Positions 31,926 to 53,037 of a stretch of 64,000 bases of DNA are shown here, piece after piece (positions within the stretch are counted from its first letter, which is position 1; every line of letters starts with the position of its first letter). The translations under genes and the position numbers were made by a program. Where the stretch lies: NCBI GenBank assembly GCA_002010065.2, contig MTMD02000008.1, positions 330,758-394,757 on the forward strand, written 5' to 3'. This DNA is from Candidatus Pyrohabitans jungbluthii. Lineage in GTDB: Archaea; Hydrothermarchaeota; Hydrothermarchaeia; Hydrothermarchaeales; BMS3B. Under the pieces are notes generated by a model, which searched no databases, had not been told where the DNA came from, and worked only from the letters and a program-made list of their open reading frames with translations.

Positions 31926-31940
31926 TTTCGAAAGCTGAAA
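31926..31940 (+). promoter_or_regulatory. Motility palindrome, copy for the MEDS-PadR operon
   Basis: TTTCGA-AAG-CTGAAA, centred at 31933, with the TATA-like agtttatgtaag centred about 19 bp downstream. Start site expected near 31977, then a G-rich RBS before the ATG at 32003. Confidence 0.7.
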
Positions 31941-32002
31941 AGCAAAGTTTATGTAAGCTCCTATAGTAGGAATTACTTAACAAATAAAAGGGGGAGTGGG
32001 TC

Positions 32003-32242
32003 ATGAAGTCATCTCTTCGCTGTCCAAAGTGCGGAAGTTTAAATGTAGAGAAAGGACATCAAGAAGTATTTCCCAGCACTTTTATGAAAGATACTAAATA
32101 TTCGCTGATAAAGGCTCTTACAAGCTCCAAAGAATTTGAAATATACGCCTGCATGGATTGTGGATACGCCGAATGGTATATCCAGGAGAAGTACCTTGAG
32201 GATGGAAACCGGGCAAAGGCTGTTGCAAGTTCCAGAGCCTAG
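32003..32242 (+). CDS. Zinc-ribbon protein at head of MEDS-PadR-receiver operon
   Basis: A 79-aa protein with an N-terminal CPKCGS and a central CMDCGY, together a four-Cys zinc ribbon with a 40-residue insert. The insert contains a helix (DTKYSLIKALTSSKEFEIY). The RBS is gggggagtggg before the ATG. It is 36 bases upstream of the MEDS-PadR gene and under the motility palindrome, so it is likely a small regulator or adaptor; no family assigned. Confidence 0.7.
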   Translation: MKSSLRCPKCGSLNVEKGHQEVFPSTFMKDTKYSLIKALTSSKEFEIYACMDCGYAEWYIQEKYLEDGNRAKAVASSRA

Positions 32243-32277
32243 ATTTCCAACTCCTTCAGATGAAGGAGGTTATAGGC

Positions 32278-33213
32278 GTGAGAAGAGCCAGGAATACAAA
32301 GAAGAATGGGCCAATTTACATCTTCAACGACTTCTACGACAGGGGCAATGACCTTTATCTCTACGACTCAAAGGAGGAGCGGCGTTACTACGTGACCAAA
32401 TCCTTCTTTCAAGCGGGTATAGATAAAAATAAGCTCTGCATTTATGCATTTCCCAGGAAACAGGATAGATTCCAGTTCAAGAGCTTTTCTGGTGATGCTT
32501 TTCGTGAAATAGAGCTCATAAGAGGGAATATAAAGATGCTAAAAGGGAGGGACCTAGAAGCATTTTATTCTGATTTTGAGGAGCTCAAGGATTATGCAAA
32601 AGATAATGGATATGAGGGCATCCACCTGAAAATCGACTTCGGCAAAGTTAGAGATGATATAATCGACGAAGTTATCGAGCTTGAAAAAAAGCTTCATAAT
32701 TCCACGAATGGCATTCCCGTAGCCTCAATAAGCTCATACAACATGAATTTTCTCAACCAGGATGCTGTTAACAGCCTCACAAAGCTTCATGACAGGGTGA
32801 TGATAACCACCGAAAAAGGGGAAACTTCAATAGCATTTTTCCAGCAGCCAAAAGCAAGACCGGTGCACATCCCGAGAATTGAGGTTATTTCTTCGAAAAT
32901 GATGGAGCAGATCGTCAAGAAGTCTCTCCAGATTATAATTCTATCCCTCCTGAAGCAGCAGCCCATGTGCGGGTTTGACATAATCAAGAGCCTGGTGCAC
33001 AACTTCAATGTGCTTCTCAGCCAGGGCACGGTGTATCCAATTCTGTACTCGCTGGAAAAGGAGGGATACCTCAAGACGGTTATAAAGTCGGATAACAAGA
33101 CAAAGCTTTATGTGCCCACAGAGATGGCCCATGAGTACATAGAGCGCCAGATACGAGAGTATATCCAAGCTCAGGAGAAGATACTCGCCCTTATCGCGAG
33201 GGGATTGAAATGA
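32278..33213 (+). CDS. MEDS sensory domain - PadR winged-helix fusion regulator
   Basis: A 311-aa protein. Residues about 8-190 resemble the MEDS domain (a KaiC-related ligand sensor described from methanogens and the DcmR regulator): IYIFNDFYDRGNDLYLYDSKEE, split at turns, FFQAGIDKNKLCIYAF and LHDRVMITTEKGE. Residues about 205-305 form a PadR-type winged helix with QIIILSLLKQQPMCGFDIIK, GTVYPILYSLEKEGYL and a C-terminal dimerisation helix. GTG at 32278 has a perfect GGAGG 8 bases upstream; ATG at 32260 is the alternative. Its stop overlaps the next receiver gene by 4 bases. This is the best candidate in the window for a motility transcription factor, by position. Confidence 0.75.
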   Translation: MRRARNTKKNGPIYIFNDFYDRGNDLYLYDSKEERRYYVTKSFFQAGIDKNKLCIYAFPRKQDRFQFKSFSGDAFREIELIRGNIKMLKGRDLEAFYSDFEELKDYAKDNGYEGIHLKIDFGKVRDDIIDEVIELEKKLHNSTNGIPVASISSYNMNFLNQDAVNSLTKLHDRVMITTEKGETSIAFFQQPKARPVHIPRIEVISSKMMEQIVKKSLQIIILSLLKQQPMCGFDIIKSLVHNFNVLLSQGTVYPILYSLEKEGYLKTVIKSDNKTKLYVPTEMAHEYIERQIREYIQAQEKILALIARGLK

Positions 33214-33578
33214 AGATAATGGTCGTGGACGACGATGATATAATCATCGAAGCCATGAAGAATATCCTCACGCCTGAAGGGTTCACAGTCATTGGGGCGA
33301 GAAGCGGTGAGGAGTGTCTGCGCATACTTGAAAGGGAGAAACCAGACTACATCTTTATAGATATCCAGATGCCAGGTATGGACGGTTGGGAAACCCTGCG
33401 GGAGATCAAGAAGAGGGAGGAACTTCGCCACATTCCCATTGCAATGCTCACCGCCCAGCCTCTGACAAAGGAAACCCTGAAAAAGGACGACATCTACGCG
33501 CTTGTGGATTACGTGGTCAAGCCCTTCACTAAGAGGGATATAACAGAGACCCTGAAGCAGGCGCTCGTGCTCGTCTGA
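33210..33578 (+). CDS. Stand-alone response-regulator receiver
   Basis: A 122-aa CheY-like receiver. Acidic pocket DDDD at residues 7-10, phosphoacceptor Asp51 in FIDIQMP, Thr in AMLTAQPL and Lys in VVKPFTKRD. It has the same unusual AMLTxQPL segment as the receiver at 43066, marking the two as paralogues distinct from CheY. Translation is coupled to the MEDS-PadR gene by ATGA overlap, so the two products probably interact. Confidence 0.9.
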   Translation: MKIMVVDDDDIIIEAMKNILTPEGFTVIGARSGEECLRILEREKPDYIFIDIQMPGMDGWETLREIKKREELRHIPIAMLTAQPLTKETLKKDDIYALVDYVVKPFTKRDITETLKQALVLV

Positions 33579-33969
33579 GGCACTCAGATTTTTTCATGCT
33601 TTTTCGTCGTCAAAGTTGAGATTTGGCTTCTCGTGCTCGGAGAGTTGTTATAAAGCCGAGATGTTTGATGTTCCACCACGCGGTGTCTTTTACTTCTATT
33701 TTTGGTCTCTATATTTATCATGCTGAGCCTCTAAAAGAGATCCACTATCCTGGGTGTCTTTAGCTAACCGTTTCTGTGCTTAATTTTCAGTGAGGCTCCA
33801 GAACTTTTTGTTGTGTGAGTTTAGAATTACCAAGAGGGGAGTATGGAGCTTGTGAGCAGGCGTCTCGGCTAGCAGAGAGCGCCGCAACAAAAATCAGAAG
33901 GAACAGAATAATCCGGTGCTAACCAGCGGGAGAAAGCCACAGGGTTTAGATTGGATGCGGACGACGGGT
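33579..33969. other. Gene-free interval after the receiver operon
   Basis: Nearly 400 bases with no ORF of coding character on either strand and no RNA gene I recognise. It separates the convergent receiver operon and the fourth archaellin gene. Two T-rich tracts just after 33580 (ttttttc, ctttttc) could be terminators. Confidence 0.5.
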
Positions 33970-34614
33970 TCACACCCAATTTCTAACGAAGATGGAGCGA
34001 ATCCCGCTGGGCGAAACCCTGGTGATTTCGCTCATTGTTCCGCCCACTGGCAGGATTGTTATTGTGAACTCCTTGTTTCCCTCAAGCGGATATGCTCTGT
34101 TGTTGGCCTCTATCCAGAAGTGCAGCTCTACATATTCCCCCTTCTCAAGCACATTGTTGTGGTTCTGCTCAAACACAGGCACCACGTAAAAATCAGCCAC
34201 CCCGTTCGCTATACCAGAACTGCTGTTTGTGCTGTTCTCCGCGAGGCTCAAGTCGTTAGTAATGGTCGCGTTATGCCTTATCCCGCTTATGTATACATCT
34301 CCGGAGTAGTAGTTTAAAATTATATCGTCATAGCGTATTTCAGAGCTTCCCGGCGCAAGGGTTACCAGGATTATGAGCTTTGTTATGTTTGGTCCGCCGT
34401 TGTTCCAAGTTTCGTTGGCGTAGGCGTAACCGGTTAAGTCCACTATCTTAACATTGGTGGAGACCTCCTTCGTCGCCTCCTCGCCGGTAGACCTTGCCTT
34501 TGATTGAAGCGTGCCCGTAGTTTTAAGGAGCACGCCTGCAGTGATTGCAGCCACCATTACCATTGCTATGAATACTATAAGCGTTCCAATACCAATCTGC
34601 GCACGGTTGTTCAT
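33970..34614 (-). CDS. flaB: Archaellin (archaeal flagellin), fourth paralogue
   Basis: Structural subunit of the archaellum filament, 214 aa from the ATG at 34614. The class III signal is very short (MNNRAQ) and leads directly into the conserved hydrophobic helix IGIGTLIVFIAMVMVAAITAGVLL, interrupted here for length, where FlaK/PibD-type peptidase would cut just before QIGIG. Several N-x-S/T sequons lie in the outer domain (for example NATI, NSTN). It ends in NWV, whereas the other three copies end in EWG. A GTG five codons earlier is an alternative start. Own promoter with palindrome at 34685. Confidence 0.92.
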   Translation of the reverse strand: MNNRAQIGIGTLIVFIAMVMVAAITAGVLLKTTGTLQSKARSTGEEATKEVSTNVKIVDLTGYAYANETWNNGGPNITKLIILVTLAPGSSEIRYDDIILNYYSGDVYISGIRHNATITNDLSLAENSTNSSSGIANGVADFYVVPVFEQNHNNVLEKGEYVELHFWIEANNRAYPLEGNKEFTITILPVGGTMSEITRVSPSGIRSIFVRNWV

Positions 34615-34684
34615 TGAAATCGCCGGCACTTTAATTTTTATTCCCCCGTTTTAATCTGGTAGAGTATATTATATAAACATTTTT

Positions 34685-34699
34685 TTTCTTATTCTGAAA
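34685..34699 (-). promoter_or_regulatory. Motility palindrome, copy for archaellin 4
   Basis: TTTCTT-ATT-CTGAAA, a weaker match on the left half. The minus-strand TATA box tttatataata lies about 19-20 bp away at 34666-34677, with the start site expected near 34647. Confidence 0.6.
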
Positions 34700-34704
34700 A
34701 TTGG

Positions 34705-35145
34705 CTAGGTGTTAAAGTAATATTCATCCCACACATCCATTTTTACCAGAGCTTTGATGACGTAGCGCCCTGAGGGAAGTGCGGTTATATTTGCTTCAAG
34801 AACCTCATTAGGATCCCACAGGGAATTTTGAAGGTTTGTGCTCCTGTTAACTATCCGCGTGCCCAGAATGTTCACTCTCTCCCCGTTGAGGAAGAGCATC
34901 AAGCTATCTTTAGTGAGTATCGTGCTCCCAGCGTTCAGGATGTAAACCGACGTGTTGTCGCTTCCGGGATAAACATGAATCACCTTTATCTCAGTGTTTA
35001 GCCTCTCTGATATAAGATGGGACTTCTGGGAAATTCCTGTTTTGACCGCCTGAGAAGCTTCGCTAACCACACCTGCCACGCCAGCAGCAATTATGACTGC
35101 AGCGATGAAGAAAATTGCATGCGCTGCCGTGGTACTGAATCCCAT
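34705..35145 (-). CDS. flaG: FlaG/FlaF-type archaellum stator protein
   Basis: A 146-aa protein starting MGFSTTAAHAIFFIAA: one N-terminal membrane helix, a short coiled segment (KTGISQKSHLISERLNTE) and a beta-sandwich like the periplasmic-space domains of FlaF/FlaG, with the characteristic VYILNAGSTIL. FlaF and FlaG anchor the archaellum motor to the S-layer. The ATG at 35145 is preferred over an upstream start because the preceding gene stops at 35147. Which of FlaF or FlaG it is orthologous to cannot be settled by eye. Confidence 0.75.
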   Translation of the reverse strand: MGFSTTAAHAIFFIAAVIIAAGVAGVVSEASQAVKTGISQKSHLISERLNTEIKVIHVYPGSDNTSVYILNAGSTILTKDSLMLFLNGERVNILGTRIVNRSTNLQNSLWDPNEVLEANITALPSGRYVIKALVKMDVWDEYYFNT

Positions 35146-35146
35146 C

Positions 35147-35593
35147 TCAGCTGCCACCTTTAAACCTGTAATAGGGGGTCCAGAGGTTCCTGTTGAGCAC
35201 TGCAACGTAGTTCCAGCCCTGTATAAGGCTGGCTGTGAGGTTTATCTCGATTATCTCATTCAGACCCCACAGCTCGTTTCCGCGTGGGTTTATCACCTCT
35301 ATCGAAGAAGGTTCAACCCACTCCCCGTTTATCCTCACTTTACTCTGGTCGGGGTCCAGAGCCACGCTTCCCACATTTTCCACATAGATGGAGAGGTTAT
35401 TCCCCTCGGTATTCACATGCACCACCTTTATGCCTCCCACAAGCTTCTCCTCAAGCTCTGACTTTTTTGCCAGCGCATTGCTTTCCATGTGGGATACCTG
35501 CTGGTTCAGCACACCCACCAGACTTGCTGCCACCACCACCACGCCTATGAAGAGAATGACCGAGGGCAGGGATTCAGACACTGCTAATCCCAC
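35147..35593 (-). CDS. flaG: FlaG-like archaellum stator protein
   Basis: A 148-aa protein with a GTG start (MGLAVSESLPSVILFIG), one membrane helix and a beta-sandwich containing SIYVENVGSVALDPD, the NxGS signature of FlaF/FlaG folds. Its start overlaps the end of the preceding FlaF-like gene by 10 bases, so the three stator genes are a tight operon. It is the closest of the three to FlaG by the hydrophobic start SVILFIGVVVVAASLVG. Confidence 0.78.
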   Translation of the reverse strand: MGLAVSESLPSVILFIGVVVVAASLVGVLNQQVSHMESNALAKKSELEEKLVGGIKVVHVNTEGNNLSIYVENVGSVALDPDQSKVRINGEWVEPSSIEVINPRGNELWGLNEIIEINLTASLIQGWNYVAVLNRNLWTPYYRFKGGS

Positions 35594-36270
35594 CCGTAGT
35601 TGTAGTTATCCGCAGGCAGAGTGTGCGCATGAGGCAGAGCCTCACCCACGCGGTATTCATCCCAGACGCCGTTCTTCACAATCACCTTGACGCTGCTCTG
35701 CACACTGCGCTGGGTGGTTATCTCTACCACATCCCCAGGTCTCCAGTAGAAGCTGGGAGAGGTATTCGTAGCCACAAACTTGCCGGTTGCAATGGTTATG
35801 TTGAACCACCCCACTATACCATAAAGCTGATCAGGAGCCGGTGTGGAGGGGTTGTATACCTGGGTGTCGTCCTGGGTTGTTAGAGTTAAGGAGGGGTTTG
35901 CGCTGCTGTCGTGATATGCACCCTTAACCAAGTAGGTCTTGTTAACATAGCTCACCTGGAAGTAGCCTAGGGCGCTCACAGTATACGCATCGCTCTCGAG
36001 CCATGCGCCATCTATAACCAGAGACACATAGTCAGGGTCTAAAGTGGTGCTTCCTGTGTTCTCCACATAGATTAAAGTATTTCCTCCGCTTTCGGTTATA
36101 TTCACTATCTCTATTTTGGTGCTCAGCACCTCCAGGTCTCGCTTTGACTGCTCCTTTATATTCTCGGCAAGCGTGGTCAGGTAGCTCTCGCCAGCGCTTA
36201 AAAGCTCCACCGCTGCAGTTATGCCTGCCATGAAAATTATAAGAAAGGCCGCAGCGGTGGCAAATCCCAA
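35584..36270 (-). CDS. flaF: FlaF-like archaellum stator protein, enlarged
   Basis: A 228-aa protein, longer than usual FlaF (about 130-170 aa). MGFATAAAFLIIFMAGITAAV forms the membrane helix (cut after 20 in practice), then a helix KEQSKRDLEVLS and a beta-sandwich with LIYVENTGSTTLDPD; an extra 70-residue region rich in Thr/Asn lies before the conserved C-terminal GVWDEYRV. I prefer a TTG start at 36270 (MGF-, as in FlaF) with gggggtgg upstream; a GTG at 36288 is the alternative. Confidence 0.75.
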   Translation of the reverse strand: MGFATAAAFLIIFMAGITAAVELLSAGESYLTTLAENIKEQSKRDLEVLSTKIEIVNITESGGNTLIYVENTGSTTLDPDYVSLVIDGAWLESDAYTVSALGYFQVSYVNKTYLVKGAYHDSSANPSLTLTTQDDTQVYNPSTPAPDQLYGIVGWFNITIATGKFVATNTSPSFYWRPGDVVEITTQRSVQSSVKVIVKNGVWDEYRVGEALPHAHTLPADNYNYGWD

Positions 36271-36284
36271 CCCACCACCCCCTA

Positions 36285-37190
36285 TCACACTATGCCCGAC
36301 TCATCGAGCTGGTTTACAACCTCTGAGTAAAGGGTGGGGCTTACATCCATTCCCTGAAGCTTGATTATGAAGAAGAGGGAGATGATGTGCTCTAGGATGG
36401 TGAGTTTTCGATTGCCTCTCGAAGCACGTGTACCGCCGAGGTCGCGGGAATACTTTATTATCTGGTCCCTAACCTCCTTGGTTATCCAGCCAACCTCCTC
36501 ATAGAATAGCAATGTTTTTATCATGCCCTGGTAGCCCACCTTCTTTATAAGAAAGTCCAACCACTTGAAGAGGAGGAGCAGCGAGTTGGGGTCGTTGTTT
36601 ATCCGCGTTAGCCTCACCACTGCACCATCTGGCTTTATATCCACCATCCCCTTTTCCACCATGCGCTCCTCTAGCATCTGCCCTTCAGAAGTAGCCGACA
36701 GCACAGATTTCTTCTCCTTTTTCTCCAGCTCATTACCATTCCCGTTTTCAATCCCGTTGGAATACCCTATAAATGGATTTATCTCATTGGTCACAAGCTC
36801 ATAAACAGAGAGCAGACCTTCCATATTTTTCTCAATCTTTGATATCCTTTCATCAAAACCGCTAACAAGGTTCTCAATCTTTGCCACTGTATCGCTTATC
36901 TCTGAAACCCTTTCCTCGAGCTGGGAAATAGCTTCCTGGGACACAGAAGCGGCTGGGCTAAAGCTCTCCTCCGCCGGTGCCTCCCCGAAGGGCGGAGCAT
37001 CACTTGCTTTATCTTCAGCCTCAGAAAAGAAGGGCGGGAGGTCCTCATCCTCTGCGTCTGTTTTCACCACCTCTCCAAAGGGCGGCACCTCTGATTTTTC
37101 CTCTTCCAGCGCCTTTTCGTTCAGTTCCCCAAGGTCGATCTTCTTATCCTTCAATCCGAGAACCAGCCCAACGCTAAGCAGTTCAAGCAT
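36285..37190 (-). CDS. flaD: Archaellum accessory protein FlaD/E (ArlD/E)
   Basis: Cytosolic archaellum protein of 301 aa. An acidic low-complexity N-terminal half with three PPFGE-type repeats (PPFGEVV, PPFFSEA, PPFGEAP) is followed by a coiled coil (residues 95-130, SQLEERVSEISDTVAKIE) and the FlaCE motif SVYELVTNEINPFIGY. The C-terminal FlaD/E domain reads SLLLLFKWLDFLIKKVG and YEEVGWITKEVRDQI. In Euryarchaeota FlaC/D/E proteins link the motor to CheY/CheF signalling. The ATG at 37190 overlaps the preceding gene. Confidence 0.9.
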   Translation of the reverse strand: MLELLSVGLVLGLKDKKIDLGELNEKALEEEKSEVPPFGEVVKTDAEDEDLPPFFSEAEDKASDAPPFGEAPAEESFSPAASVSQEAISQLEERVSEISDTVAKIENLVSGFDERISKIEKNMEGLLSVYELVTNEINPFIGYSNGIENGNGNELEKKEKKSVLSATSEGQMLEERMVEKGMVDIKPDGAVVRLTRINNDPNSLLLLFKWLDFLIKKVGYQGMIKTLLFYEEVGWITKEVRDQIIKYSRDLGGTRASRGNRKLTILEHIISLFFIIKLQGMDVSPTLYSEVVNQLDESGIV

Positions 37191-37797
37191 CAATTTTTAT
37201 CCCCTCTCTCCTCGTATTTACCTGGTTGACCGGTATATCACGCCTCATTCTGAGAAGTTCCACTTCTTTTCTGGCGGATCTCAACTCTCTCTCCAGCTCT
37301 TTTATCCTTCTTCTCAGGTTTCTTATGTTTATCTCCTTTATTATTCCTAATCTGTACCATTTCTCGATTTCTTTTGCTGCCAAGGTGGGGTTTCTGAGAT
37401 TCTGAACCTTCGATCTTTTAAACCACTCTTCGAGTTCCTTCAAACTGTAGAGCAGCTCCAGGTCTTCACTGGGCAGGTTTATGCCGCGCACCTCCCCCAG
37501 CACAGGCTGCGATATCCTCTTTTTTACAGGTATGGGATCGCTCACATTCATCCTGCCCTTCAGGAGAGCGCCGTAGGTTATCAGAGCAATGGCGGCGAAG
37601 GCTACGTAGAGAATAAACCAAGTCGCCAGGTTACCTTCCTTGTTTACCACAAGATTTACAGGTAGTAGCATTATAAGCATGCCCACTGTCGCTGTCAGTG
37701 ACCAGTATAGACTCCACACCATCTTATTCTTCCTCTTTATATAACTCTCAAGTTCATCCATCAGCACAGCATCTGGCGAGGTCTGGATTATATACAT
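37183..37797 (-). CDS. Two-pass membrane protein with C-terminal coiled coil, head of fla accessory operon
   Basis: A 204-aa protein not assigned to a family. Two membrane helices (about residues 28-52 and 60-80) are joined by a short loop, then a soluble part with a long basic coiled coil (NIRNLRRRIKELERELRSAR, 150-175). It is the first gene of the operon with flaD, flaF and two flaG genes, and carries the motility palindrome. Crenarchaeal FlaX is also a membrane protein with a coiled-coil domain that forms a ring around the motor, so a similar scaffold role is possible; this is analogy only. Confidence 0.65.
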   Translation of the reverse strand: MYIIQTSPDAVLMDELESYIKRKNKMVWSLYWSLTATVGMLIMLLPVNLVVNKEGNLATWFILYVAFAAIALITYGALLKGRMNVSDPIPVKKRISQPVLGEVRGINLPSEDLELLYSLKELEEWFKRSKVQNLRNPTLAAKEIEKWYRLGIIKEINIRNLRRRIKELERELRSARKEVELLRMRRDIPVNQVNTRREGIKIDA

Positions 37798-37849
37798 CCC
37801 CCCATGTATGTTATAATAACCCCATTTTTCTGTCTATTTAAAGGTTGTT

Positions 37850-37864
37850 TTTCGGAAAATGAAG
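37850..37864 (-). promoter_or_regulatory. Motility palindrome, copy for the fla accessory operon
   Basis: TTTCGG-AAA-ATGAAG, with minus-strand TATA cctttaaatag at 37834-37844, 18 bp centre to centre. Two further half-sites (tttttcgaa) lie at 37890-37896 and 37909-37915 toward the divergent small zinc-ribbon gene. Confidence 0.6.
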
Positions 37865-37965
37865 CTGGAAGAAAAATAAGCCATATAGTTTTTCGAATCT
37901 TTTTACGTTTTTCGAAACTAAACCTATATCTACCTTAATTGATAATTTTGAAGAAGGTGTTAAAA

Positions 37966-38112
37966 ATGTGGAGCTGTCCTGTTTGCGGATCAACGGAGTT
38001 TGTTCTAACGCCAAATGGGGGTAAAGTGCAGAAGGTACGCTGCGCTACATGCGAACGTACCTTTATACTTGAGGAGCTCCGCCTCCTTGACGGATACAGC
38101 AGAAACTGGTAG
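37966..38112 (+). CDS. 48-aa zinc-ribbon protein
   Basis: Short ORF starting MWSCPVCGSTEF and containing a second knuckle RCATCERTF, so a CxxC-x18-CxxC zinc ribbon makes up nearly the whole protein. The tail is LDGYSRNW. It is divergent from the fla accessory operon, with tttttcgaa half-sites between them, and its stop ends one base before the cheD stop on the other strand. It is likely a real small regulator of the motility island. Confidence 0.6.
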   Translation: MWSCPVCGSTEFVLTPNGGKVQKVRCATCERTFILEELRLLDGYSRNW

Positions 38113-38113
38113 C

Positions 38114-38596: not shown

Positions 38597-38598
38597 GC

Positions 38599-41105: not shown

Positions 41106-41129
41106 GAACCCCTCCCCTTTGCCTCGAAG

Positions 41130-41486: not shown

Positions 41487-41490
41487 GTCC

Positions 41491-42733: not shown

Positions 42734-42748
42734 TTTCAGGACTCAAAA
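42734..42748 (-). promoter_or_regulatory. Motility palindrome, copy for the HK-cheYACD operon
   Basis: TTTCAG-GAC-TCAAAA with minus-strand TATA ccttttatta-like sequence (aataaagg at 42721-42728), about 18 bp centre to centre. Confidence 0.6.
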
Positions 42749-42939: not shown

Positions 42940-42954
42940 TTTCGGATCTTGAAC
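42940..42954 (-). promoter_or_regulatory. Motility palindrome, copy for the 35-aa gene
   Basis: TTTCGG-ATC-TTGAAC centred at 42947, about 20 bp upstream (minus direction) of the TATA box actttatttaaag. A further weak match (tttcaggtctttaaa, 42914-42928) overlaps the TATA box itself. Confidence 0.5.
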
Positions 42955-42971: not shown

Positions 42972-42986
42972 TTTCGGCTACCGAAA
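42972..42986 (+). promoter_or_regulatory. Motility palindrome, copy for the receiver-HK operon
   Basis: TTTCGG-CTA-CCGAAA, a perfect inverted repeat with 3-base spacer, centred at 42979. The TATA box ttaatatatata follows at 42994-43005, 20 bp centre to centre. Start site expected near 43025. Confidence 0.75.
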
Positions 42987-45104: not shown

Positions 45105-46451
45105 TTATATTTCCCAAGGTGGCTTCTCCTCTGATTCCTGCATGCTCTCCTTTCTGCTTTTGATCCGCTCCTCTATCTTAGCCATGTCATCCCAGTCTTC
45201 CTGAACCTCCTCCTTCGCTGGATATGCGTTCCTCGCAAAGGTGAGGAACACCTCGCCTAGAGGAGTCATCTTAACCTCGGTAGCTGCCCGCTGCACAATC
45301 CCGTAGTATTCCAGCACCTTCAGCGCTTCGTTCACCTCCTCTTTTGGCAGGTCGCTTTTCTGCACAATCTCCTGAAGCTGCATGGTGCCCTTCTCCAGAA
45401 GATTCAGAAGCACAATATCGCTCGCCGTTGGTAGCACCGAGAAGGCATCTATCTGCTCAAGGGTAATTTCATACACACACGCAGCGCCACCTGCGTTTCT
45501 GCACTCTACCTCCCTTATTGTGACGCCAATCTTCAGGTTCTCCATGAAGAACCTTCCCACTGCCGTCGAAGTTGTGTGACATGCCCCACCCGGCACCATT
45601 GCACAAACGTGGCAGCCCTCCACACGGAGGCGGTAGGTTAGCGGTGCCTTGCTTTGGAGCGAGACCTTTTCGCCAATTCCCGCGCGCATGAGCATGTTCT
45701 CAATCAGGAGCCGAAGCCTGTCATCCTCGAAAACACCTGTCGCGGAAGAGCGCAGAAATGCTCGCCTCGCAGCCACTGGCACTGTGATACTTTCAAGGAA
45801 ATCATTAACCCTCTCTTCAACCTCAAATAATTTCTCAAAGCTTCCCAGCAGCTCTGAGAAGTTCAGAGGTTCCTCCTCAAACCCCTGAAGCTCAACATTC
45901 ATTATCCTCCGGATGTCCTCCTCATTCAGATAGAAATACAGGTGACAGTAGGTGAAATCAGAATCCTGCAGGGAAGTACTGAAAAAGAGCACACCCTCCT
46001 TATTTACGCCGAGAGCTGCAAGAAGGTCCGGAATTGAGCGAATTCTGCCTGCGCTCAAATCTGGAGAGGAGATTTTCACCTTCACCCCAAAAAAATCAGA
46101 AATCGCCTTTACGAAGGAACCTGCCATCTTTCTGCCTACTTCCTGGAGCATACCATCAAGCTCCGAAACGGAACCGGGATTACCAATACACTGACCTACT
46201 TTCAGCGCACCCTTAATAGGAAAAAAGAAGAGAAGGGTACCTGTTATTGCATCTCCAAAGGTATAGACGCTGACAATCACCCCCTCCTCTCCCACCTTCT
46301 CCGCCATATCCTTCCCCGCTATTACGTCTATCACCGGCGGCGTTATTGACACCTTTGCGCTCAGCATATCCGAGAGGGAGCTTGCAGAGTGGCTAGAGCC
46401 AATGTTTCCAACCTCACGCAGCGCATCCTTAGCAAAACTGCTGAGGTTCAC
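45105..46451 (-). CDS. CheC - V4R - winged-helix fusion protein
   Basis: A 448-aa fusion. Residues 1-190 are a CheC-like phosphatase fold: the first site (DALREVGNIGSSH) is intact, while in the second (LQEVGRKMAGS) Asn is replaced by Arg. Residues about 205-345 form a V4R (4-vinyl-reductase) ligand-binding domain with its cysteines in GCHVCAMVPGGACHT and VECRNAGGAACVYE. Residues about 350-415 form a winged helix (DIVLLNLLEKGTMQLQEIV). A charged tail follows. It overlaps cheF by 4 bases with RBS gaggagg. It probably couples a small-molecule or metal signal to CheY-P turnover; the wing may mediate protein or DNA contacts. Confidence 0.8.
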   Translation of the reverse strand: MNLSSFAKDALREVGNIGSSHSASSLSDMLSAKVSITPPVIDVIAGKDMAEKVGEEGVIVSVYTFGDAITGTLLFFFPIKGALKVGQCIGNPGSVSELDGMLQEVGRKMAGSFVKAISDFFGVKVKISSPDLSAGRIRSIPDLLAALGVNKEGVLFFSTSLQDSDFTYCHLYFYLNEEDIRRIMNVELQGFEEEPLNFSELLGSFEKLFEVEERVNDFLESITVPVAARRAFLRSSATGVFEDDRLRLLIENMLMRAGIGEKVSLQSKAPLTYRLRVEGCHVCAMVPGGACHTTSTAVGRFFMENLKIGVTIREVECRNAGGAACVYEITLEQIDAFSVLPTASDIVLLNLLEKGTMQLQEIVQKSDLPKEEVNEALKVLEYYGIVQRAATEVKMTPLGEVFLTFARNAYPAKEEVQEDWDDMAKIEERIKSRKESMQESEEKPPWEI

Positions 46452-46966
46452 TTATACCCCTCCTCCATCATTATGAGCTTCCCCTTCTCTGTGAGTATCC
46501 CTGCCTCTGTGCATATCCCCTCTCGCTTAAACTCCTCCAGAATGCTCACTATCTCATCGTAATCACGCTTGACAAGGGGCATTATGTTCTCAGGCCTCCT
46601 CACACCGTGATAAAGCGCCTTAAGCACCAGCCTCTTGGCGTCGGTAAATTTAATGGCGCCCACGGTATCAGAGGCCGTGGGGAGCACGCTCATTAGGGCG
46701 TTGTAGAGGGAATAGACCTTTGGCTTCTTTCCCCCTATAAAGGTCTTGGTGTTGTCGATAACCATCACCAAGATAGAGTTTCCGCCGGCGGCGTCCTTTA
46801 TCTCAGAGATGCTGACATGCTCATTGGGTATCTTTTTCCAGCCCTTATCTGTCTTTATCCAAACGTTCAAATCCGTTGAAGCAAGAACTATCTTCTTCCA
46901 GTCCTTAAAATTCGTTGAGAAGTACACATTCTCCACTTTAAAGAGAAGCTTCTCCTGCTCCGCCAT
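46448..46966 (-). CDS. cheF: Archaeal chemotaxis adaptor CheF
   Basis: CheF links CheY-P, CheC/CheD and the FlaC/D/E part of the archaellum motor. The 172-aa protein starts LFKVENVYFSTNFKDWKKI, shows the membrane/PH-like N-terminal part, then SDTVGAIKFTDAKRLVLKAL and a C-terminal winged helix (VKRDYDEIVSILEEF) as in the CheF-arch family. ATG at 46966 directly follows the archaellin stop at 46969. Co-transcribed with archaellin 3 and the CheC-V4R fusion. Confidence 0.82.
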   Translation of the reverse strand: MAEQEKLLFKVENVYFSTNFKDWKKIVLASTDLNVWIKTDKGWKKIPNEHVSISEIKDAAGGNSILVMVIDNTKTFIGGKKPKVYSLYNALMSVLPTASDTVGAIKFTDAKRLVLKALYHGVRRPENIMPLVKRDYDEIVSILEEFKREGICTEAGILTEKGKLIMMEEGYK

Positions 46967-46968
46967 GA

Positions 46969-47652
46969 TTAGCCCCACTCAGAGATGTACTTCTTGCCGA
47001 AGGAACTGGGCGCCGTTTTCTTTACCGTGGTGGTCTGCCCTGCTTTTGGCTGAAGAATCAGGGTGAACTCCTGGTCGGGCTGAATGGGCAGATCGTTGCC
47101 CAGGTTGTCCTCAATCCAGTAGATTATCTCTACTATCTCGCTCTGCTCCAGTACAGAGTTGGGATTCTGGGGGTTCTTGTCCTTTATCCTTCTTATGTAG
47201 AACTGAGCCACGTCGGTGTCTGTACCATTTATAACATTCTCGGCTTTTGAAATTTCGTCAGTAAGACTAAGAATCCCCTGCGAGGCGTTGTTGCTTCCGG
47301 TGCCATTGAACTTTATGCCCACAATGTAGTTATCGCCGGAATGGTAGGCAAGCACCATATCCTCGTACTTCACATCCCCACTTCCTGCGGCAAGCTGCAC
47401 GCGTAGTATTACCGCATTTATTCTCTCCCGAGATGTATCGTTCACATAACCTATTACATCCACAACCTTTACATTCGTCGAGACTTCTTTGGTTGCTTGC
47501 TCACCCGTTACAGTGGCCTTCTGTTGAAGTCCACCAGAAGTGCGAAGCAGCACACCTGCTGCGACCGCAGCCACGAGAACCATGGCTATGAAGATTATCA
47601 GCGTGCCAATACCCACCTGCGCCCTGCGACAGGATAGCAAATTCCTCCCCAT
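46969..47652 (-). CDS. flaB: Archaellin (archaeal flagellin), third paralogue
   Basis: Archaellum filament subunit of 227 aa. Class III leader MGRNLLSCRRA precedes the conserved QVGIGTLIIFIAMVLVAAVA helix. The C-terminal half has the shared block ending FTLILQPKAGQTTTVKK and the terminal EWG. More diverged at the DNA level from archaellins 1 and 2 than these are from each other. It heads its own operon with cheF and the CheC-V4R gene. Confidence 0.93.
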   Translation of the reverse strand: MGRNLLSCRRAQVGIGTLIIFIAMVLVAAVAAGVLLRTSGGLQQKATVTGEQATKEVSTNVKVVDVIGYVNDTSRERINAVILRVQLAAGSGDVKYEDMVLAYHSGDNYIVGIKFNGTGSNNASQGILSLTDEISKAENVINGTDTDVAQFYIRRIKDKNPQNPNSVLEQSEIVEIIYWIEDNLGNDLPIQPDQEFTLILQPKAGQTTTVKKTAPSSFGKKYISEWG

Positions 47653-47701
47653 TTTATCTCCCCGTGTATAGTGTGAATAAATGAGAATTATAAAGGTTAT
47701 T

Positions 47702-47716
47702 TTTTGGATTTCGAAA
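47702..47716 (-). promoter_or_regulatory. Motility palindrome, copy for the archaellin 3-cheF operon
   Basis: TTTTGG-ATT-TCGAAA with minus-strand TATA cctttataatt at 47686-47696, 18 bp centre to centre. Confidence 0.65.
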
Positions 47717-47751
47717 ATTAAATAAAAAAGAAAAAGAGAGATTTTTCTTGT

Positions 47752-48441
47752 TTATCCCCACTCTGTGGTGTACTTCTGGTTAATCACGCTGGGTGCAGTC
47801 TTCTTGACCGTTGTTGTCTGTCCTGCCTTGGGCTGCACTGTGAGCACAAACTGATCGTCCGGGTCAAGAGGCACGTCGGTGCCGTCGTTCTTCTCAAGCC
47901 AGAAGAGTATCTCTATTATCTCCCCCGGCTCAAGCACTTCGTTGGGCGTTGAATCTCTGTCCTTCAGCCTGCGGATGTAGAACTGAGCCTTGTCGTAGTC
48001 TGTACCCGAACTGAGATTGGCATTCTCTATGCCAGAAGCGATGCCCCCACTGAGGGAGTACAGACTGTCGCTCAATGCTTTTGTACTGTTGTACTTGATG
48101 CCACTCACGTAGGTGTCTCCCTCCTGGTAGGTGAGCACTATGTCCTCATACTTGACGTCGCCGCTGCCAGAGGCGAGCTGCGCCGTGAGGATGAGTGCCC
48201 TTATCTTCTTGTTGCTCGTGGTGTCGTTACTGTAGCCCACGACGTTCGTAACCTTGATGTTCGTTGAGACTTCTTTTGTTGCTTGTTCACCTGTCACCGT
48301 GGCCTTCTGCTGAAGTCCACCCGACGTCTTGAGAAGAACGCCCGCTGCCACCGCTGCAACCAGGATCATCGCTATGAAGATTATCAGTGTGCCAATTCCT
48401 ACCTGCGCTCGCTTGTCCCTGAAAAATTTCTCACCCCTCAT
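47752..48441 (-). CDS. flaB: Archaellin (archaeal flagellin), second paralogue
   Basis: Archaellum filament subunit of 229 aa. I start it at the ATG at 48441 (MRGEKFFRDKRAQVGIG), which follows RBS ggaggtgatt; the upstream in-frame start overlaps archaellin 1. It ends VLTVQPKAGQTTTVKKTAP...EWG. A 157-base block (48231-48387) covering the N-terminal helix and neck is identical to archaellin 1 (48947-49103). Several N-x-S/T sequons lie in the outer domain. Confidence 0.95.
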   Translation of the reverse strand: MRGEKFFRDKRAQVGIGTLIIFIAMILVAAVAAGVLLKTSGGLQQKATVTGEQATKEVSTNIKVTNVVGYSNDTTSNKKIRALILTAQLASGSGDVKYEDIVLTYQEGDTYVSGIKYNSTKALSDSLYSLSGGIASGIENANLSSGTDYDKAQFYIRRLKDRDSTPNEVLEPGEIIEILFWLEKNDGTDVPLDPDDQFVLTVQPKAGQTTTVKKTAPSVINQKYTTEWG

Positions 48442-48494
48442 ATTCCAATCACCTCCATAAAATGGAAGAGAAGGCAGGGGAGGGCATTTTCTCC

Positions 48495-49157
48495 CTATCC
48501 CCACTCAGTTATGAACTGCTGGGAAATCACGCTGGGCACTGTCTTCTTGACCGTGGTAGTCTGTCCTGCCTTGGGCTGCACTGTGAGCACAAACTGGTCG
48601 TCTGGTGCCAATGGATTGGTCAGCGCCAGCTCGTTGCCGCTGTTGTCCACCAGCCAGTAGACGATCTCTATTATCTCCCCAGGCTCCAGCACGGTATTGG
48701 GAGTGGAATCCTTGTCCTTGAGTCTGCGGATTTCGAAGACCGCTTTGTTCTGTGAGTCTGCTGTAGTGTTAACATTTTCCAGCGCGTCAGTGAGACTCAG
48801 TACGCCACCATAGGCGATGCCGCTCACGTAGGTGTCGCCTTCCTGGTAGGTGAGCACTATGTCGTCGTACTTCACATCCCCGCTACCAGAGGCAAGCTGA
48901 GCGGTGAGAATGATGGCATCAACGCGGTTGTTGTTGGTATTGTTGGTGTAGCCCACGACGTTCGTAACCTTGATGTTCGTTGAGACTTCTTTTGTTGCTT
49001 GTTCACCTGTCACCGTGGCCTTCTGCTGAAGTCCACCCGACGTCTTGAGAAGAACGCCCGCTGCCACCGCTGCAACCAGGATCATCGCTATGAAGATTAT
49101 CAGAGTGCCAATTCCTACCTGTGCTTTCCTGTTTCTCAGAAACTCCCCAACCTTCAT
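48495..49157 (-). CDS. flaB: Archaellin (archaeal flagellin), first paralogue
   Basis: Archaellum filament subunit of 220 aa. Leader MKVGEFLRNRKA, then QVGIGTLIIFIAMILVAAVA, a sequon-containing variable middle and the conserved end VQPKAGQTTTVKK and EWG. RBS aggaggggtt sits just before the ATG. First gene of a two-archaellin operon with the palindrome at 49218 and a strong TATA box (attatatatacaa on the minus strand). Confidence 0.95.
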   Translation of the reverse strand: MKVGEFLRNRKAQVGIGTLIIFIAMILVAAVAAGVLLKTSGGLQQKATVTGEQATKEVSTNIKVTNVVGYTNNTNNNRVDAIILTAQLASGSGDVKYDDIVLTYQEGDTYVSGIAYGGVLSLTDALENVNTTADSQNKAVFEIRRLKDKDSTPNTVLEPGEIIEIVYWLVDNSGNELALTNPLAPDDQFVLTVQPKAGQTTTVKKTVPSVISQQFITEWG

Positions 49158-49217
49158 ACAACCCCTCCTATTAGGTTTTAAGAACTAACACCCTGAGAAT
49201 TGTATATATAATTTTTT

Positions 49218-49232
49218 TTTCGAGCTTCGAAA
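49218..49232 (-). promoter_or_regulatory. Motility palindrome, copy for the archaellin 1-2 operon
   Basis: TTTCGA-GCT-TCGAAA, a perfect 15-bp inverted repeat, centred at 49225. The minus-strand TATA box (tatatataca, near 49206) is 19 bp away. Best match to the consensus in the window, in front of the major filament genes. Confidence 0.78.
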
Positions 49233-49317
49233 CCACGGTTCAGATTGTGTGGATATTTTATTACACAAATATATACGTATTGTAAAAATAAAATTTTCAA
49301 TCCTATATATTTATATT

Positions 49318-49812
49318 TCATTTGATTAACTGCCACCATGCATTGTGAAAATATGAAAAATCGCATGAATTATCATAAGCAGATAAGAATCTATTGGAAT
49401 ACCTATCCAGATAAACTTCCACGCGCCATTTTTGATTTTTTGGGTCATATTTAAATTTTCTGTCCGCAAACAATTTTTCAAGCTCCAGAGTATTTATTAT
49501 AAAGAAATCATAGTCTATCGCATTCCTCTCGCTTTGGTCAAAATGAACCCCCACTAATACATAGAAGACATTCTCGCTAAGTATCTCCCTGTGAAGCATC
49601 CTTGATATTTCCCACCAGTAGCTGTACTGCGCTCCTCTGGGTAGATATCTGTCGAAGTACTTTTTGCTTGTTTTTATCTGAAGAGCTATAAACTTATTCC
49701 TGTTATACCCGACAACATCTATTCCTTTATCTTTCACCGGAGCAAAGCTGCCAAATTCCATGTGTGTGAGGCGATGGAAGACCTCCAAAACGCCTAAGCT
49801 GCCGGTATCCAA
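49318..49812 (-). CDS. PD-(D/E)XK nuclease-like protein in the motility island
   Basis: A 164-aa protein, alpha/beta, with a restriction-endonuclease-like core: GVLEVFHRLTHMEFG helix, then KDKGIDVVGYNR...FIALQIKTSKK, the D...QxK pattern of PD-(D/E)XK families (DUF4365-like). The ORF is open back to 49914, but the promoter (palindrome 49862-49876, minus TATA near 49851) puts the transcript start near 49826, so I chose the TTG at 49812; an ATG at 49761 is also possible. Base composition is slightly more A/T-rich than the neighbours. Why a nuclease-like protein should share a motility promoter is unknown. Confidence 0.6.
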   Translation of the reverse strand: MDTGSLGVLEVFHRLTHMEFGSFAPVKDKGIDVVGYNRNKFIALQIKTSKKYFDRYLPRGAQYSYWWEISRMLHREILSENVFYVLVGVHFDQSERNAIDYDFFIINTLELEKLFADRKFKYDPKNQKWRVEVYLDRYSNRFLSAYDNSCDFSYFHNAWWQLIK

Positions 49813-49861
49813 GGCTTCGCACCAAGTAGTTTGAAGCTCCTTAAAAAAGATATAATTTATT

Positions 49862-49876
49862 TTTCGAACTCCGAAA
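49862..49876. promoter_or_regulatory. Motility palindrome in a bidirectional promoter
   Basis: TTTCGA-ACT-CCGAAA centred at 49869. TATA boxes lie on both sides at matching distance: agatttataac (plus, near 49888, 19 bp) and aattatatc on the minus strand (near 49851, 18 bp). One operator appears to serve the 114-aa gene and the nuclease-like gene. Confidence 0.72.
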
Positions 49877-49912
49877 CAATAAAGATTTATAACCTCTCGA
49901 GAAGGTGCTTCC

Positions 49913-50257
49913 ATGGGGGGTAATAAAAAGGAAAATCTTGAACTACGAGCCTACAAACTTGGTTTTGAGGTCGGCTTCCACACACACGACGAATGGACAA
50001 GCTGGGTCTGGAAGGAGAAAAAGAAGATTTTTGATGAGGCAAGGAAAAGCAAACTTCTGGATAGAATAGAAGTTGCATATGAAAGGGGCAAATTTGAGGG
50101 TTTTTTGAGAAAAAAGAGAATGAAGGGAAAGGAGAGTATAATTAAGAATAAGTCAGGAATAAAAGTTATAGAAAAGCCATCATTTATCTCAAAACCTGCA
50201 ATGACGGATGTTATGAAAGCAGTTCTTCTACCAAAATTTCTCAAATTTTTTAAATAG
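49913..50257 (+). CDS. Conserved-looking 114-aa protein, unknown
   Basis: Basic protein with an N-terminal alpha-helical module AYKLGFEVGFHTHDEWTSWV followed by KIFDEARKSKLLDRIEVAYERGK and a Lys-rich C-terminus. I recall similar LGxExGFHxH proteins in other motile Euryarchaeota but can name no function. The ATG lies at the predicted transcription start, so the message may be leaderless. It is the plus-strand partner of the bidirectional motility promoter at 49862. Confidence 0.65.
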   Translation: MGGNKKENLELRAYKLGFEVGFHTHDEWTSWVWKEKKKIFDEARKSKLLDRIEVAYERGKFEGFLRKKRMKGKESIIKNKSGIKVIEKPSFISKPAMTDVMKAVLLPKFLKFFK

Positions 50258-50975
50258 TTTTAAGAAGACTGGTGATTCTTATACCATTTTTAGTTATTTC
50301 GAATCTGCGGAGGTTACAATCATGCTTTGTGCCCCGCATTTTTATTATCTGAATCGCCCGTGTCATCTGGGAATTTGAAAGAAAGTTGTGGAGGAAGATT
50401 ACCCCATGGGCAAGGAAGTGCTCCGGAAGATACCTCTCCGGGTCAGTCATTTCGGAGAGCAGCAGGGTGGTGCACCCGATTTTCTGAAGCCCCCGCATAA
50501 ACTCCCCCATCTGTTTCTTCTCAAACCTCGGATCGGCGCCTATAAATTTGATGGCGGAGAGGGAGTCTATCACGAGCCTTTTAATCCCTCTGAACTTCAC
50601 GTGCTCGGAGATTCTCGAAAGAAGCTGCTTGTAGGTTGGAAACTCCACAGAGGTCTCCAGCATTTCCCCAATGTCCATGAACAGGAGCTTTCCAGATGTA
50701 ACAAGTTCTTCTATTTTGAAGGAAAAGGAAGTCATATCAGATATTATGTTCTCTACATCCTCCACAAGAGAGACAAAAAGGCCACGCTCCCCCTGCCAAG
50801 CACCGCAGGCAAGGAACTGCACTCCAAAGGTGGTCTTTCCACTGCCCGGAGGGCCACTAACCACATAAATTCTGTTGGGCAAAAGACCGCCCTCAATCAG
50901 GGAGTCCAGCCCGGTGATGCCTGTATTTACTCGAGTTTTAGGCCTAGGTGTTCTAAGAGCTGCCATCAATTTCAT
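50250..50975 (-). CDS. KaiC-like RecA-superfamily ATPase
   Basis: Single-domain KaiC-family ATPase of 241 aa. TGITGLDSLIEGGLLPN, Walker A VVSGPPGSGKTT, SLVEDVENI at the catalytic acidic position, and Walker B LVIDSLSAIKF are in place; the C-terminal part TRAIQIIKMRGTKH is typical of KaiC-like proteins. FlaH of the archaellum is a relative, but this one has an ordinary KaiC-like Walker set and lies outside a flaHIJ context, so I do not call it FlaH. It carries its own motility palindrome, so a signalling role in motility is likely. Confidence 0.8.
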   Translation of the reverse strand: MKLMAALRTPRPKTRVNTGITGLDSLIEGGLLPNRIYVVSGPPGSGKTTFGVQFLACGAWQGERGLFVSLVEDVENIISDMTSFSFKIEELVTSGKLLFMDIGEMLETSVEFPTYKQLLSRISEHVKFRGIKRLVIDSLSAIKFIGADPRFEKKQMGEFMRGLQKIGCTTLLLSEMTDPERYLPEHFLAHGVIFLHNFLSNSQMTRAIQIIKMRGTKHDCNLRRFEITKNGIRITSLLKTI

Positions 50976-51017
50976 TCCCCGTATGATGAGTTCTTAAAGA
51001 ACTAATTAAAGATTTTT

Positions 51018-51032
51018 TTTCATTTCTCGAAA
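51018..51032 (-). promoter_or_regulatory. Motility palindrome, copy for the KaiC-like gene
   Basis: TTTCAT-TTC-TCGAAA with minus-strand TATA ctttaattag at 51002-51011, 18 bp centre to centre. The divergent cheB promoter (TATA ttatttaag near 51067) is 42 bp away, so the fit there is not the usual one. Confidence 0.58.
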
Positions 51033-51104
51033 CATATCCAGAAGGATTAACCTTAAAAGAATCTTATTTAAGCTAAAGTTTAGCACAAATTTCGGAGGGA
51101 ATGG

Positions 51105-52127
51105 ATGGGGGAGCGCATAAAAGTACTCGTAGTAGACGACTCGGCATTAATGCGCAAGCTGATTTCAGACATGATTAATTCCTCACCAGACTGCGAGGTT
51201 ATAGGCATAGCAAGAGACGGAGAAGAAGCTATTGAAAAGGTAAACCAGCTTCGTCCGGACGTTGTTACCCTCGACGTGGAGATGCCCCGTATTAATGGCT
51301 TAGAGGCGCTGGCGCACATCATGATGCACATGCCCACGCCTGTGATAATGCTCTCGGCACTCACAAAGGAAGGCGCGGAAACAACAATGAGAGCGCTTGA
51401 GCTGGGTGCCGTCGATTTTATCGCCAAACCTGGAGGAAAGAGTATATCCGTGGGCATAGAGGAAATAAAGGAAGAGCTTTTGAAAAAGATACGCGTGGCT
51501 GCGCGTGCGAAGCCTAAGAGGCTTTATATTCGTAGGAAAAAGAAGCATTTACTGCCGAAAAAACTGCGTGAAAACATTGCTATCGTCTTCGGCGCTTCCA
51601 CAGGTGGACCGGGAACTTTGATGGATATACTTCAAGCTTTACCCGCCGACATGCCCCCTGTTTTTATAGTCCAGCACATGCCCCCTGGCTTCACCTCCTC
51701 CTTCGCGAAGAGACTTAATGCCCTTTCTCGCTTTGAGGTTAAAGAAGCGGAGGATGGGGACGTCATAGAGTCTGGGGTGGGGTATGTAGCACCAGGAGAT
51801 TACCACATGGTCATCCGGAGAGGTCGCATAAGGCTCACTAAGGAACCAAAGCTGCATGGCGTAAGACCTGCGGTGGACAAGACCATGGAAAGTGCAGCAG
51901 AGGTCTACGGGAAAAACACCATCGGTGTTCTTCTCACTGGAATGGGTAACGACGGAGCGGAGGGGCTCAAAAAAATCAGGGCCTTAGGGGGTAGGACAAT
52001 CGTTGAAGACAGCTCCACCTGCGTGGTCTTCGGCATGCCCAAGGCTGCGATCGAAGCTGGGGCAGCTGAAGTTATCGCCCCCAACTATAGAATCGCTGAC
52101 GAGATTATAAGGATGCTGGGAGAATGA
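51105..52127 (+). CDS. cheB: Chemoreceptor methylesterase CheB
   Basis: Receiver-methylesterase of 340 aa that removes methyl groups from receptors and deamidates them. Receiver domain with Asp57 in VTLDVEMP, linker (about 110-150), and CheB catalytic domain with Ser165 in GASTGGP, His191 in VQHMPPGF and Asp283 in GMGNDGAEG. RBS cggaggg 5 bases before the ATG. Overlaps cheR by 4 bases. Confidence 0.96.
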   Translation: MGERIKVLVVDDSALMRKLISDMINSSPDCEVIGIARDGEEAIEKVNQLRPDVVTLDVEMPRINGLEALAHIMMHMPTPVIMLSALTKEGAETTMRALELGAVDFIAKPGGKSISVGIEEIKEELLKKIRVAARAKPKRLYIRRKKKHLLPKKLRENIAIVFGASTGGPGTLMDILQALPADMPPVFIVQHMPPGFTSSFAKRLNALSRFEVKEAEDGDVIESGVGYVAPGDYHMVIRRGRIRLTKEPKLHGVRPAVDKTMESAAEVYGKNTIGVLLTGMGNDGAEGLKKIRALGGRTIVEDSSTCVVFGMPKAAIEAGAAEVIAPNYRIADEIIRMLGE

Positions 52128-52939
52128 TCACCTCAAGCCAGGACTATTTCCCGCTGCTGAAAAGGAAGATTAAGGACATTATGGACTTCAATAGCGAATT
52201 CTACGAAGACAAACATCTGAGGAGAAGGGTTGCCATCAGAATGCGTGCCCTCGACATCGCCTCCTACAGAGAATACCTGAGGATACTAGAAAGGGACAGA
52301 GATGAGCGCATAAAACTTTCAAAGGTTCTCACGGTCAATGTCACAGAATTCTTCCGCAATCCAGAGACCTTTGAGGTTATCAGGCGCGACGTATTACCTG
52401 AACTGATTAAGCTCAAGCTGAACAACAGCAGTAGGGTGCTCCGCCTGTGGAGCGCCGGATGTGCTGACGGCAAAGAGCCCTATTCTCTTGCGATGCTCAT
52501 AAAAGATGTGCTCAACGGAAGAGATGACTTCATGGTAAAGATAATGGCAACTGATATAGATATAGACAGTCTTGAAAAGGCAAGACTCGGCATATATCAC
52601 AAGGACGAGTTGAGGGGGATAAGAAAGGACTACCTTAAGAAGTACTTTGAAAAGACCGCAAGGGGCTACAGGGTAAAGGAGGAAATAAGGAAGATGGTGA
52701 CATTTGAGCGCAGGGATCTAATCTCAGATAGAAAGTACAAGGTTATGGACGTAATACTGTGCAGGAATGTGATTATATACTTCTCGAAGGAGTTAAAAGA
52801 AAAGCTGTTTATGGACTTCTATGACTCGCTAAACACAGGCGGTTTTCTGATTCTGGGTAAGACTGAGAACTTGACCGGCCCTGCAAGGAAAAAATTTGTG
52901 GTGTACAACAATGTTGAAAGAATTTATAGAAAGATGTAG
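52124..52939 (+). CDS. cheR: Chemoreceptor methyltransferase CheR
   Basis: SAM-dependent methyltransferase of 271 aa that methylates receptor glutamates. N-terminal helical domain with LTVNVTEFFRNPE, SAM site RLWSAGCADGKEPYSLAM, ATDIDIDSLEKAR and CRNVIIYFSKE. Complete. Its stop lies in the 5' arm of a strong hairpin. Confidence 0.95.
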   Translation: MITSSQDYFPLLKRKIKDIMDFNSEFYEDKHLRRRVAIRMRALDIASYREYLRILERDRDERIKLSKVLTVNVTEFFRNPETFEVIRRDVLPELIKLKLNNSSRVLRLWSAGCADGKEPYSLAMLIKDVLNGRDDFMVKIMATDIDIDSLEKARLGIYHKDELRGIRKDYLKKYFEKTARGYRVKEEIRKMVTFERRDLISDRKYKVMDVILCRNVIIYFSKELKEKLFMDFYDSLNTGGFLILGKTENLTGPARKKFVVYNNVERIYRKM

Positions 52940-52961
52940 GGGAACCCTAAAAGGGCCCCCC
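52939..52961. terminator. GC-rich hairpin at the end of cheR
   Basis: A 9-bp stem with a 5-base loop: ggggaaccc / taaaa / gggcccccc (two G-T pairs on one strand). It overlaps the last base of the cheR stop codon. No T-run follows on the plus strand; on the minus strand it lies within the G-rich element that follows the palindrome at 53023. Confidence 0.5.
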
Positions 52962-52985
52962 TCCCCCACACCTTTCCCCGGAGGT
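52945..52985 (-). ncRNA. Putative G-rich small RNA, second copy
   Basis: Read on the minus strand. The TATA box (near 53009) predicts a start near 52985, then an RNA with GGGG, GGGGG and GGGGGG runs and CCCTTTT. Aligned with 10728-10776, the block GGGGGAGGGGG plus following CCCT is shared at the same distance (63 versus 64 bases) from an identical palindrome. No plausible ORF. It would run antisense into the 3' end of cheR if not terminated at the hairpin. Confidence 0.4.
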
Positions 52986-53022
52986 ATTGAGTTATCTGTA
53001 ATAGTAATATAAGTAGATTATC

Positions 53023-53037
53023 TTTCGAATTCTGAAA
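53023..53037 (-). promoter_or_regulatory. Motility palindrome at the cheR end of the island
   Basis: Minus strand TTTCAG-AAT-TCGAAA, centred at 53030, with minus-strand TATA cttatattac near 53009, 21 bp away. The only thing downstream in that direction is the G-rich element and the end of cheR. Confidence 0.65.

Follow-up and report, generated by a model that had tools for sequence, protein, structure and literature searches.

The stretch of DNA analysed here, a 64-kb window, comes from an uncultured hydrothermal archaeon of the genus Pyrohabitans (Candidatus Hydrothermarchaeota), a phylum of the hot subseafloor whose motility is suggested to be an adaptive trait (PMC6775978). Between 32 and 53 kb, the window carries archaellins, arl accessory genes, a che operon, receivers, a CheF-like gene, a CheC-V4R-HTH gene, a KaiC-like gene and cheBR (Table 1). 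Few archaellum regulators are known. Recurring through this region is a 15-bp palindrome, TTTCRR-N3-YYGAAA. A sequence-only reading had placed the motif or a close variant at 12 positions in the window, and all 12 were confirmed.

Table 1. Palindrome copies and the genes they accompany, in window positions
Feature	Position	Strand	Match	Context
Palindrome	10674..10688	+	exact, 12/12	Upstream of nurA-herA; conserved in G006
Palindrome	31926..31940	+	exact, 12/12	Promoter of zinc-ribbon/MEDS-PadR/receiver operon; none of the 15 bases differs among 5 congeneric genomes
Small zinc-ribbon ORF, 79 aa	32003..32242	+		First gene of MEDS-PadR operon
MEDS-PadR protein	32260..33213	+		Proposed palindrome binder; Pfam PadR 1e-11, MEDS 3.5e-8
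Stand-alone receiver	33210..33578	+		Same operon, adjoins MEDS-PadR; pairing kept in several relatives
Archaellins	33970, 46969, 47752, 48495	- (all)
Palindrome	34685..34699	-	10/12	Promoter of archaellin 33970-34629; TATA-matrix register
arl accessory genes	34705-37797	-
Palindrome variant	37850..37864	-	10/12	Promoter of arl accessory operon; TATA-matrix register
Kinase-CheY-CheA-CheC-CheD operon	42699-38114	-
Palindrome	42734..42748	-	11/12	Promoter of kinase-CheY-CheA-CheC-CheD operon
Palindrome	42940..42954	-	11/12	Promoter of small ORF region
Palindrome	42972..42986	+	exact, 12/12	Promoter of receiver 43066 and kinase 43424; conservation footprint
Palindrome	47702..47716	-	11/12	Promoter of archaellin 46969, CheF-like 46448 and CheC-V4R-HTH 45105; conservation footprint
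Palindrome	49218..49232	-	exact, 12/12	Promoter of tandem archaellins 48495 and 47752; conservation footprint
Palindrome	49862..49876	.	exact, 12/12	Common to divergent orf198 and orf114 promoters; conservation footprint
Palindrome	51018..51032	.	11/12	KaiC-like promoter (-), possibly cheBR (+); conservation footprint
Palindrome	53023..53037	-	exact, 12/12	Promoter-like context conserved, target unknown

Distribution of the palindrome

A pattern search of the 1.99-Mb genome returned 10 exact copies, six of which fall inside motility loci that total about 25 kb (binomial P 8e-10). The remaining four comprise two inside unrelated genes and two at non-motility promoters (nurA-herA and an ABC transporter). 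Under a dinucleotide model, the window holds six exact copies against 0.13 expected, and 12 copies matching at least 11/12 against 2.5. For intergenic sequence only, the corresponding figures are five against 0.009 and 10 against 0.34. One-mismatch palindromes show no genome-wide enrichment (79, versus 95 for the reversed pattern), and we therefore count weaker copies only where TATA geometry and conservation accompany them.

Individual sites differ in how well they fit a motility assignment. The copy at 10674 had been listed among the motility sites; it precedes nurA-herA, which act in DNA end processing, and not a motility gene. With an exact palindrome and a good TATA box, it appears as a regulon member without evident motility role. 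An exact palindrome in the standard TATA register also stands before an ABC transporter ATPase gene elsewhere in the genome (G000:C10:51601; L011:4102). The proposal that the copy at 49862 serves two divergent promoters held. The flanking orf198 and orf114 (49318-50257) form a fast-evolving divergent pair of unknown family, without matches in Pfam, NCBIfam or PADLOC. At 51018, the KaiC-like side held, while on the cheB side the TATA box is more distant by some 11 bp, roughly a helical turn. Other copies surpass site 31926 in symmetry, a point against the reading favoured below. Further, the window encodes a CheC-V4R-winged-helix fusion (45105-46451, minus strand), in which a chemotaxis phosphatase domain is joined to a DNA-binding domain.

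The copy at 53023 failed as a motility promoter, since it sits between the convergent cheR and aconitase-like genes. Across 52955-53037 on the minus strand, the palindrome, a TATA box and a downstream G-rich stretch are kept in three congeners. No gene could be assigned to this region, no Rfam match was found and the RNA fold z was only -1.4; on the latter two results a small-RNA reading was rejected. A small antisense transcript toward the 3′ end of cheR remains a possibility.

Promoter geometry and conservation

The element is a true inverted repeat with fixed geometry, conserved at motility promoters. In intergenic sequence of the motility loci of its own genome, TTTCRR-Nk-YYGAAA was sought at every k from 0 to 14, and all five occurrences have k=3. 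Among the motility loci of relatives, there are 30 palindromes at k=3, at most one at any other k up to 14, and four at k=15. A stack of 41 promoters reads G-TTTCGR-N3-YYGAAA, followed by an A-rich BRE and then TTTATATA at +23 to +30, and in this stack the two arms, distal TTTC and proximal, are equally invariant. The palindrome abuts the BRE, ending before it without covering it. Its centre lies about 18.5 bp from that of the TATA box, in one register, as anticipated by the sequence-only reading (18-21 bp upstream). When a TATA matrix was built from promoters of other genera alone, its best offset fell at the exact expected position in 10 of 15 own promoters; on the opposite side of the same 15 sites, best offsets were scattered with no preferred position. 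That reading would have been refuted had the motif been equally common elsewhere and its spacing to TATA unfixed; the motif passed.

The element persists at the orthologous promoters of four congeners (G006-G009). The arms and the BRE/TATA core are conserved at 0.73-1.00 of columns (at least 0.80 outside the nurA set), compared with only 0.14-0.53 in the 60 bp upstream of the element, and the 3-base spacer drifts freely in several orthologous sets. The relatedness of these congeners makes their copies non-independent, and several of the genomes compared are fragmented. Independent support comes from arlH, from earA in three lineages, and from G015 and G017. The arlHIIJ operon lies outside the window, on contig C6. 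Its promoter carries an 11/12 element in the standard register, kept in the four congeners, and a second, exact copy stands 51 bp further upstream (C6:17909), out of register. Beyond the genus, G015, a member of another family, bears the palindrome at its arlB, arlF, arlH and cheF promoters. The expectation that the motif is conserved in relatives thus held, both at the orthologous promoters of the congeners and at the arl and che promoters of G015. As a separate observation, the type B arlHIIJ operon (L010:2069-7125) has two adjacent genes for ArlI-like secretion ATPases (541 and 564 aa), where usually there is one.

EarA, two archaellum types and a candidate regulator

In sequence and spacing, the element is distinct from those of EarA, CsmR and MsvR. 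It resembles the EarA elements in that the regulator site directly adjoins an A-rich BRE, on the upstream side, at archaellin promoters, and in that both belong to euryarchaeal archaellum control. EarA boxes of Methanococcus and the Thermococcales are, however, short, often repeated TACATA sequences at the first archaellin promoter, whereas the palindrome spans 15 bp and stands at some ten motility promoters. The sequence-only reading had correctly stated that EarA binds a different motif (TACATA, and A[CG][CG]TACA[TC] in Thermococcales; PMC5512572, PMC10665913). CsmR of Haloferax, a wHTH motility regulator unrelated to EarA and with a multi-target regulon, likewise uses a semi-palindromic, promoter-proximal motif near TATA, but this motif (TATCA-N4-TGATA) differs in sequence and spacer and does not describe the 41-promoter stack. 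Published work places CsmR mainly in Halobacteria and some Thaumarchaeota (PMC13286277). MsvR boxes (TTCGTA-N4-TACGAA; TTCG-N7-9-CGAA) share the TTCG/CGAA half-sites upstream of TATA. In the palindrome, these are separated by N5, not N7-9, within 6-bp arms at spacer 3, and the MsvR-like V4R protein of the window (CheC-V4R-HTH) is absent from most palindrome-bearing genomes. RosR, of the haloarchaeal PadR family, also has a palindromic site and also controls other regulators, but its motif is 20 bp long (TCGnCGACGAGnTCGnCGAC) and serves oxidative stress, not motility (PMC4287449).

An ArlH tree separates two archaellum types with full support: type B, in the genus Pyrohabitans, G017 and one G015 copy, and type A, in g2, g3, G019 and the other G015 copy. 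G015 accordingly has two archaellum systems in one genome (L165-L169), one EarA-type and one palindrome-type. Protein and profile searches find EarA (PF07381) in G001, G002, G004, G005, G015 and G019, and neither search gives a match in any of the five Pyrohabitans-genus genomes (G000, G006-G009). Next to the type A arl operon lies a zinc-ribbon protein that was considered as a possible EarA; family searches ruled this out, and EarA was found elsewhere. EarA boxes, A[CG][CG]TACA[TC], stand at type A archaellin promoters in G001, G003, G005 and G019; none occur in the 200 bp upstream of the arl genes of the genome studied here.

The palindrome reappears at earA itself. An exact 12/12 copy lies upstream of earA in five of the six EarA-bearing genomes (G001, G002, G004, G005 and G019), with a chance expectation, for each of three lineages, of about 4.5e-4 per 300 bp. 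In g3, this copy is some 13 bp further from TATA. Upstream of earA in G015, no palindrome of at least 10/12 was found; in that genome the palindrome is on the type B promoters. The operator is therefore found either at earA or directly at motility genes.

Whatever binds the element must exist wherever the element does; by this reasoning EarA and CheC-V4R-HTH fail and MEDS-PadR fits. EarA is excluded as binder by its absence from the genus Pyrohabitans. CheC-V4R-HTH, whose V4R domain recalls MsvR, is excluded by its restriction to the genus Pyrohabitans and G015; it has no match in g2 or g3, and G017 and G019 yield CheC-domain matches only. Full-length MEDS-PadR, by contrast, is present in all 12 genomes with archaellins, as well as in G002 (where a contig breaks at arlJ), and absent from all seven genomes without archaellins. 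The sequence-only reading had named no regulator, and this candidate comes from inference in the follow-up.

Several features tie MEDS-PadR to the element and to the archaellum. Its operon starts at site 31926 in the genome studied here, and in G017 a palindrome and TATA box directly precede padR; no palindrome of at least 10/12 was found at padR in G003-G005. A receiver usually accompanies the protein, and arl genes are nearby in the genus Pyrohabitans, G001/G002 and G015. Among orthologues, the DNA-binding domain is near-invariant. This PadR domain models as an LmrR-like winged helix, matched by Foldseek to LmrR/Cth-833 at a target-normalised TM of 0.7-0.85; the AlphaFold model is of moderate confidence (pLDDT 76), and fold matches were used for this domain only. 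We consider MEDS-PadR the best candidate binder, an inference from distribution, operon and fold that amounts to association, not proof, as there are no binding data. A PadR domain related to that of MEDS-PadR also occurs near KaiC-like and receiver genes in Methanosarcinales/Methanotrichaceae loci (L128-L132).

Proposed mechanism and alternatives

On balance, and by a modest margin, we favour the view that a dimeric winged-helix factor turns on the motility regulon with the palindrome as its operator, MEDS-PadR being the likeliest such factor; neither binding nor expression data exist. Each arm of the palindrome would take one subunit of the dimer. Sitting just upstream of the A-rich BRE, about 18.5 bp from the TATA centre (near -45), the dimer would help TFB and TBP to load. 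The factor's direct targets would be the archaellin, arl, che and receiver promoters in type B genomes and earA in type A genomes, where EarA would then act on the arl operon. The KaiC-like MEDS domain is predicted to sense a signal and the PadR domain to bind DNA, and MEDS-PadR may regulate itself through site 31926. Binding by MEDS-PadR, activation and signal sensing are all inferred from sequence alone, whereas the element itself, its geometry, conservation and presence at earA, and which genomes have each candidate, were observed directly.

The sequence-only reading had called the position that of an archaeal activator site, which is supported. The palindrome shows the fixed register immediately upstream of BRE/TATA that is expected of such sites, and archaeal activators such as EarA work from this position (PMC5512572, PMC10665913); activation at the palindrome is unproven. 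We infer, without expression data, that activation is likely, and comfortably the better choice over repression.

The strongest alternative, which we consider less likely than not, is that the motility operator is bound by a different regulator that tracks archaella in the order, such as another wHTH protein. The regulator inventory is incomplete, as whole genomes were not available, so that DNA-binding proteins of the same distribution are not excluded, and the shared distribution of the element and MEDS-PadR is correlation only. Against this, two other candidates (CheC-V4R-HTH and EarA) have been excluded, and MEDS-PadR is linked to the archaellum by neighbourhood (g1, G001/G002, G015) and, in g1 and G017, has an operon that bears the motif.

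It is also possible that the palindrome is a motility operator whose bound dimer represses, blocking TFB at the BRE until released by a signal. Box B of MaMsvR, just upstream of TATA, has been interpreted as obstructing the BRE (PMC3729527), and RosR, an archaeal PadR protein, acts as a repressor on many of its targets (PMC4287449). The palindrome does abut the BRE. However, it stops short of the BRE, and the g3 copy at earA lies too far out for simple blocking. Further, these sites either take the place of EarA or control it, and EarA is an activator that binds next to the BRE on its upstream side (PMC5512572).

A third reading, that the element is merely an extended BRE (CGAAA...) beside TATA with a coincidental distal arm, is very unlikely and already refuted. 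The extended BRE of M. jannaschii, MRCCGAAAAG (cited in PMC5512572), does resemble the proximal arm and A-run. Yet the distal arm is equally invariant, is found only at spacer 3 and is conserved while its flank drifts, and one copy is common to two divergent promoters; the spacer and conservation tests thus reject this reading. Lastly, AT-rich intergenic sequence and unenriched one-mismatch copies could suggest chance AT-rich palindromes picked by eye, a reading all but excluded, and indeed refuted, by the excess of exact copies in the window and by the placements at arlH and earA, which are independent of the window sites.

Promoter-proximal control of the archaellum is already known. What is likely new here is the operator, a probable new regulator (itself inferred) and a layer above EarA. 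The literature we searched held no direct account of archaellum control by PadR or MEDS proteins, no paper on what regulates earA, and none on archaellum control in Hydrothermarchaeota, for which PMC6775978 reports genes only. A bolder version of our favoured reading, slightly likelier to prove wrong than right, is that MEDS-PadR is an order-wide master switch of swimming that stands above EarA, acting through earA in type A; in genomes without EarA, each arl and che promoter of type B would be its direct target. In either version, the element offers a handle on the system: its sequence is exact and its geometry fixed, a candidate protein is named, and genomes that have EarA can be compared with those that lack it. 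Between the two archaellum types, the motility regulon may have been rewired around an unchanged operator. If the bolder reading is true, this would be a case of regulatory rewiring in which the operator was preserved and the intermediate activator, EarA, was dropped.
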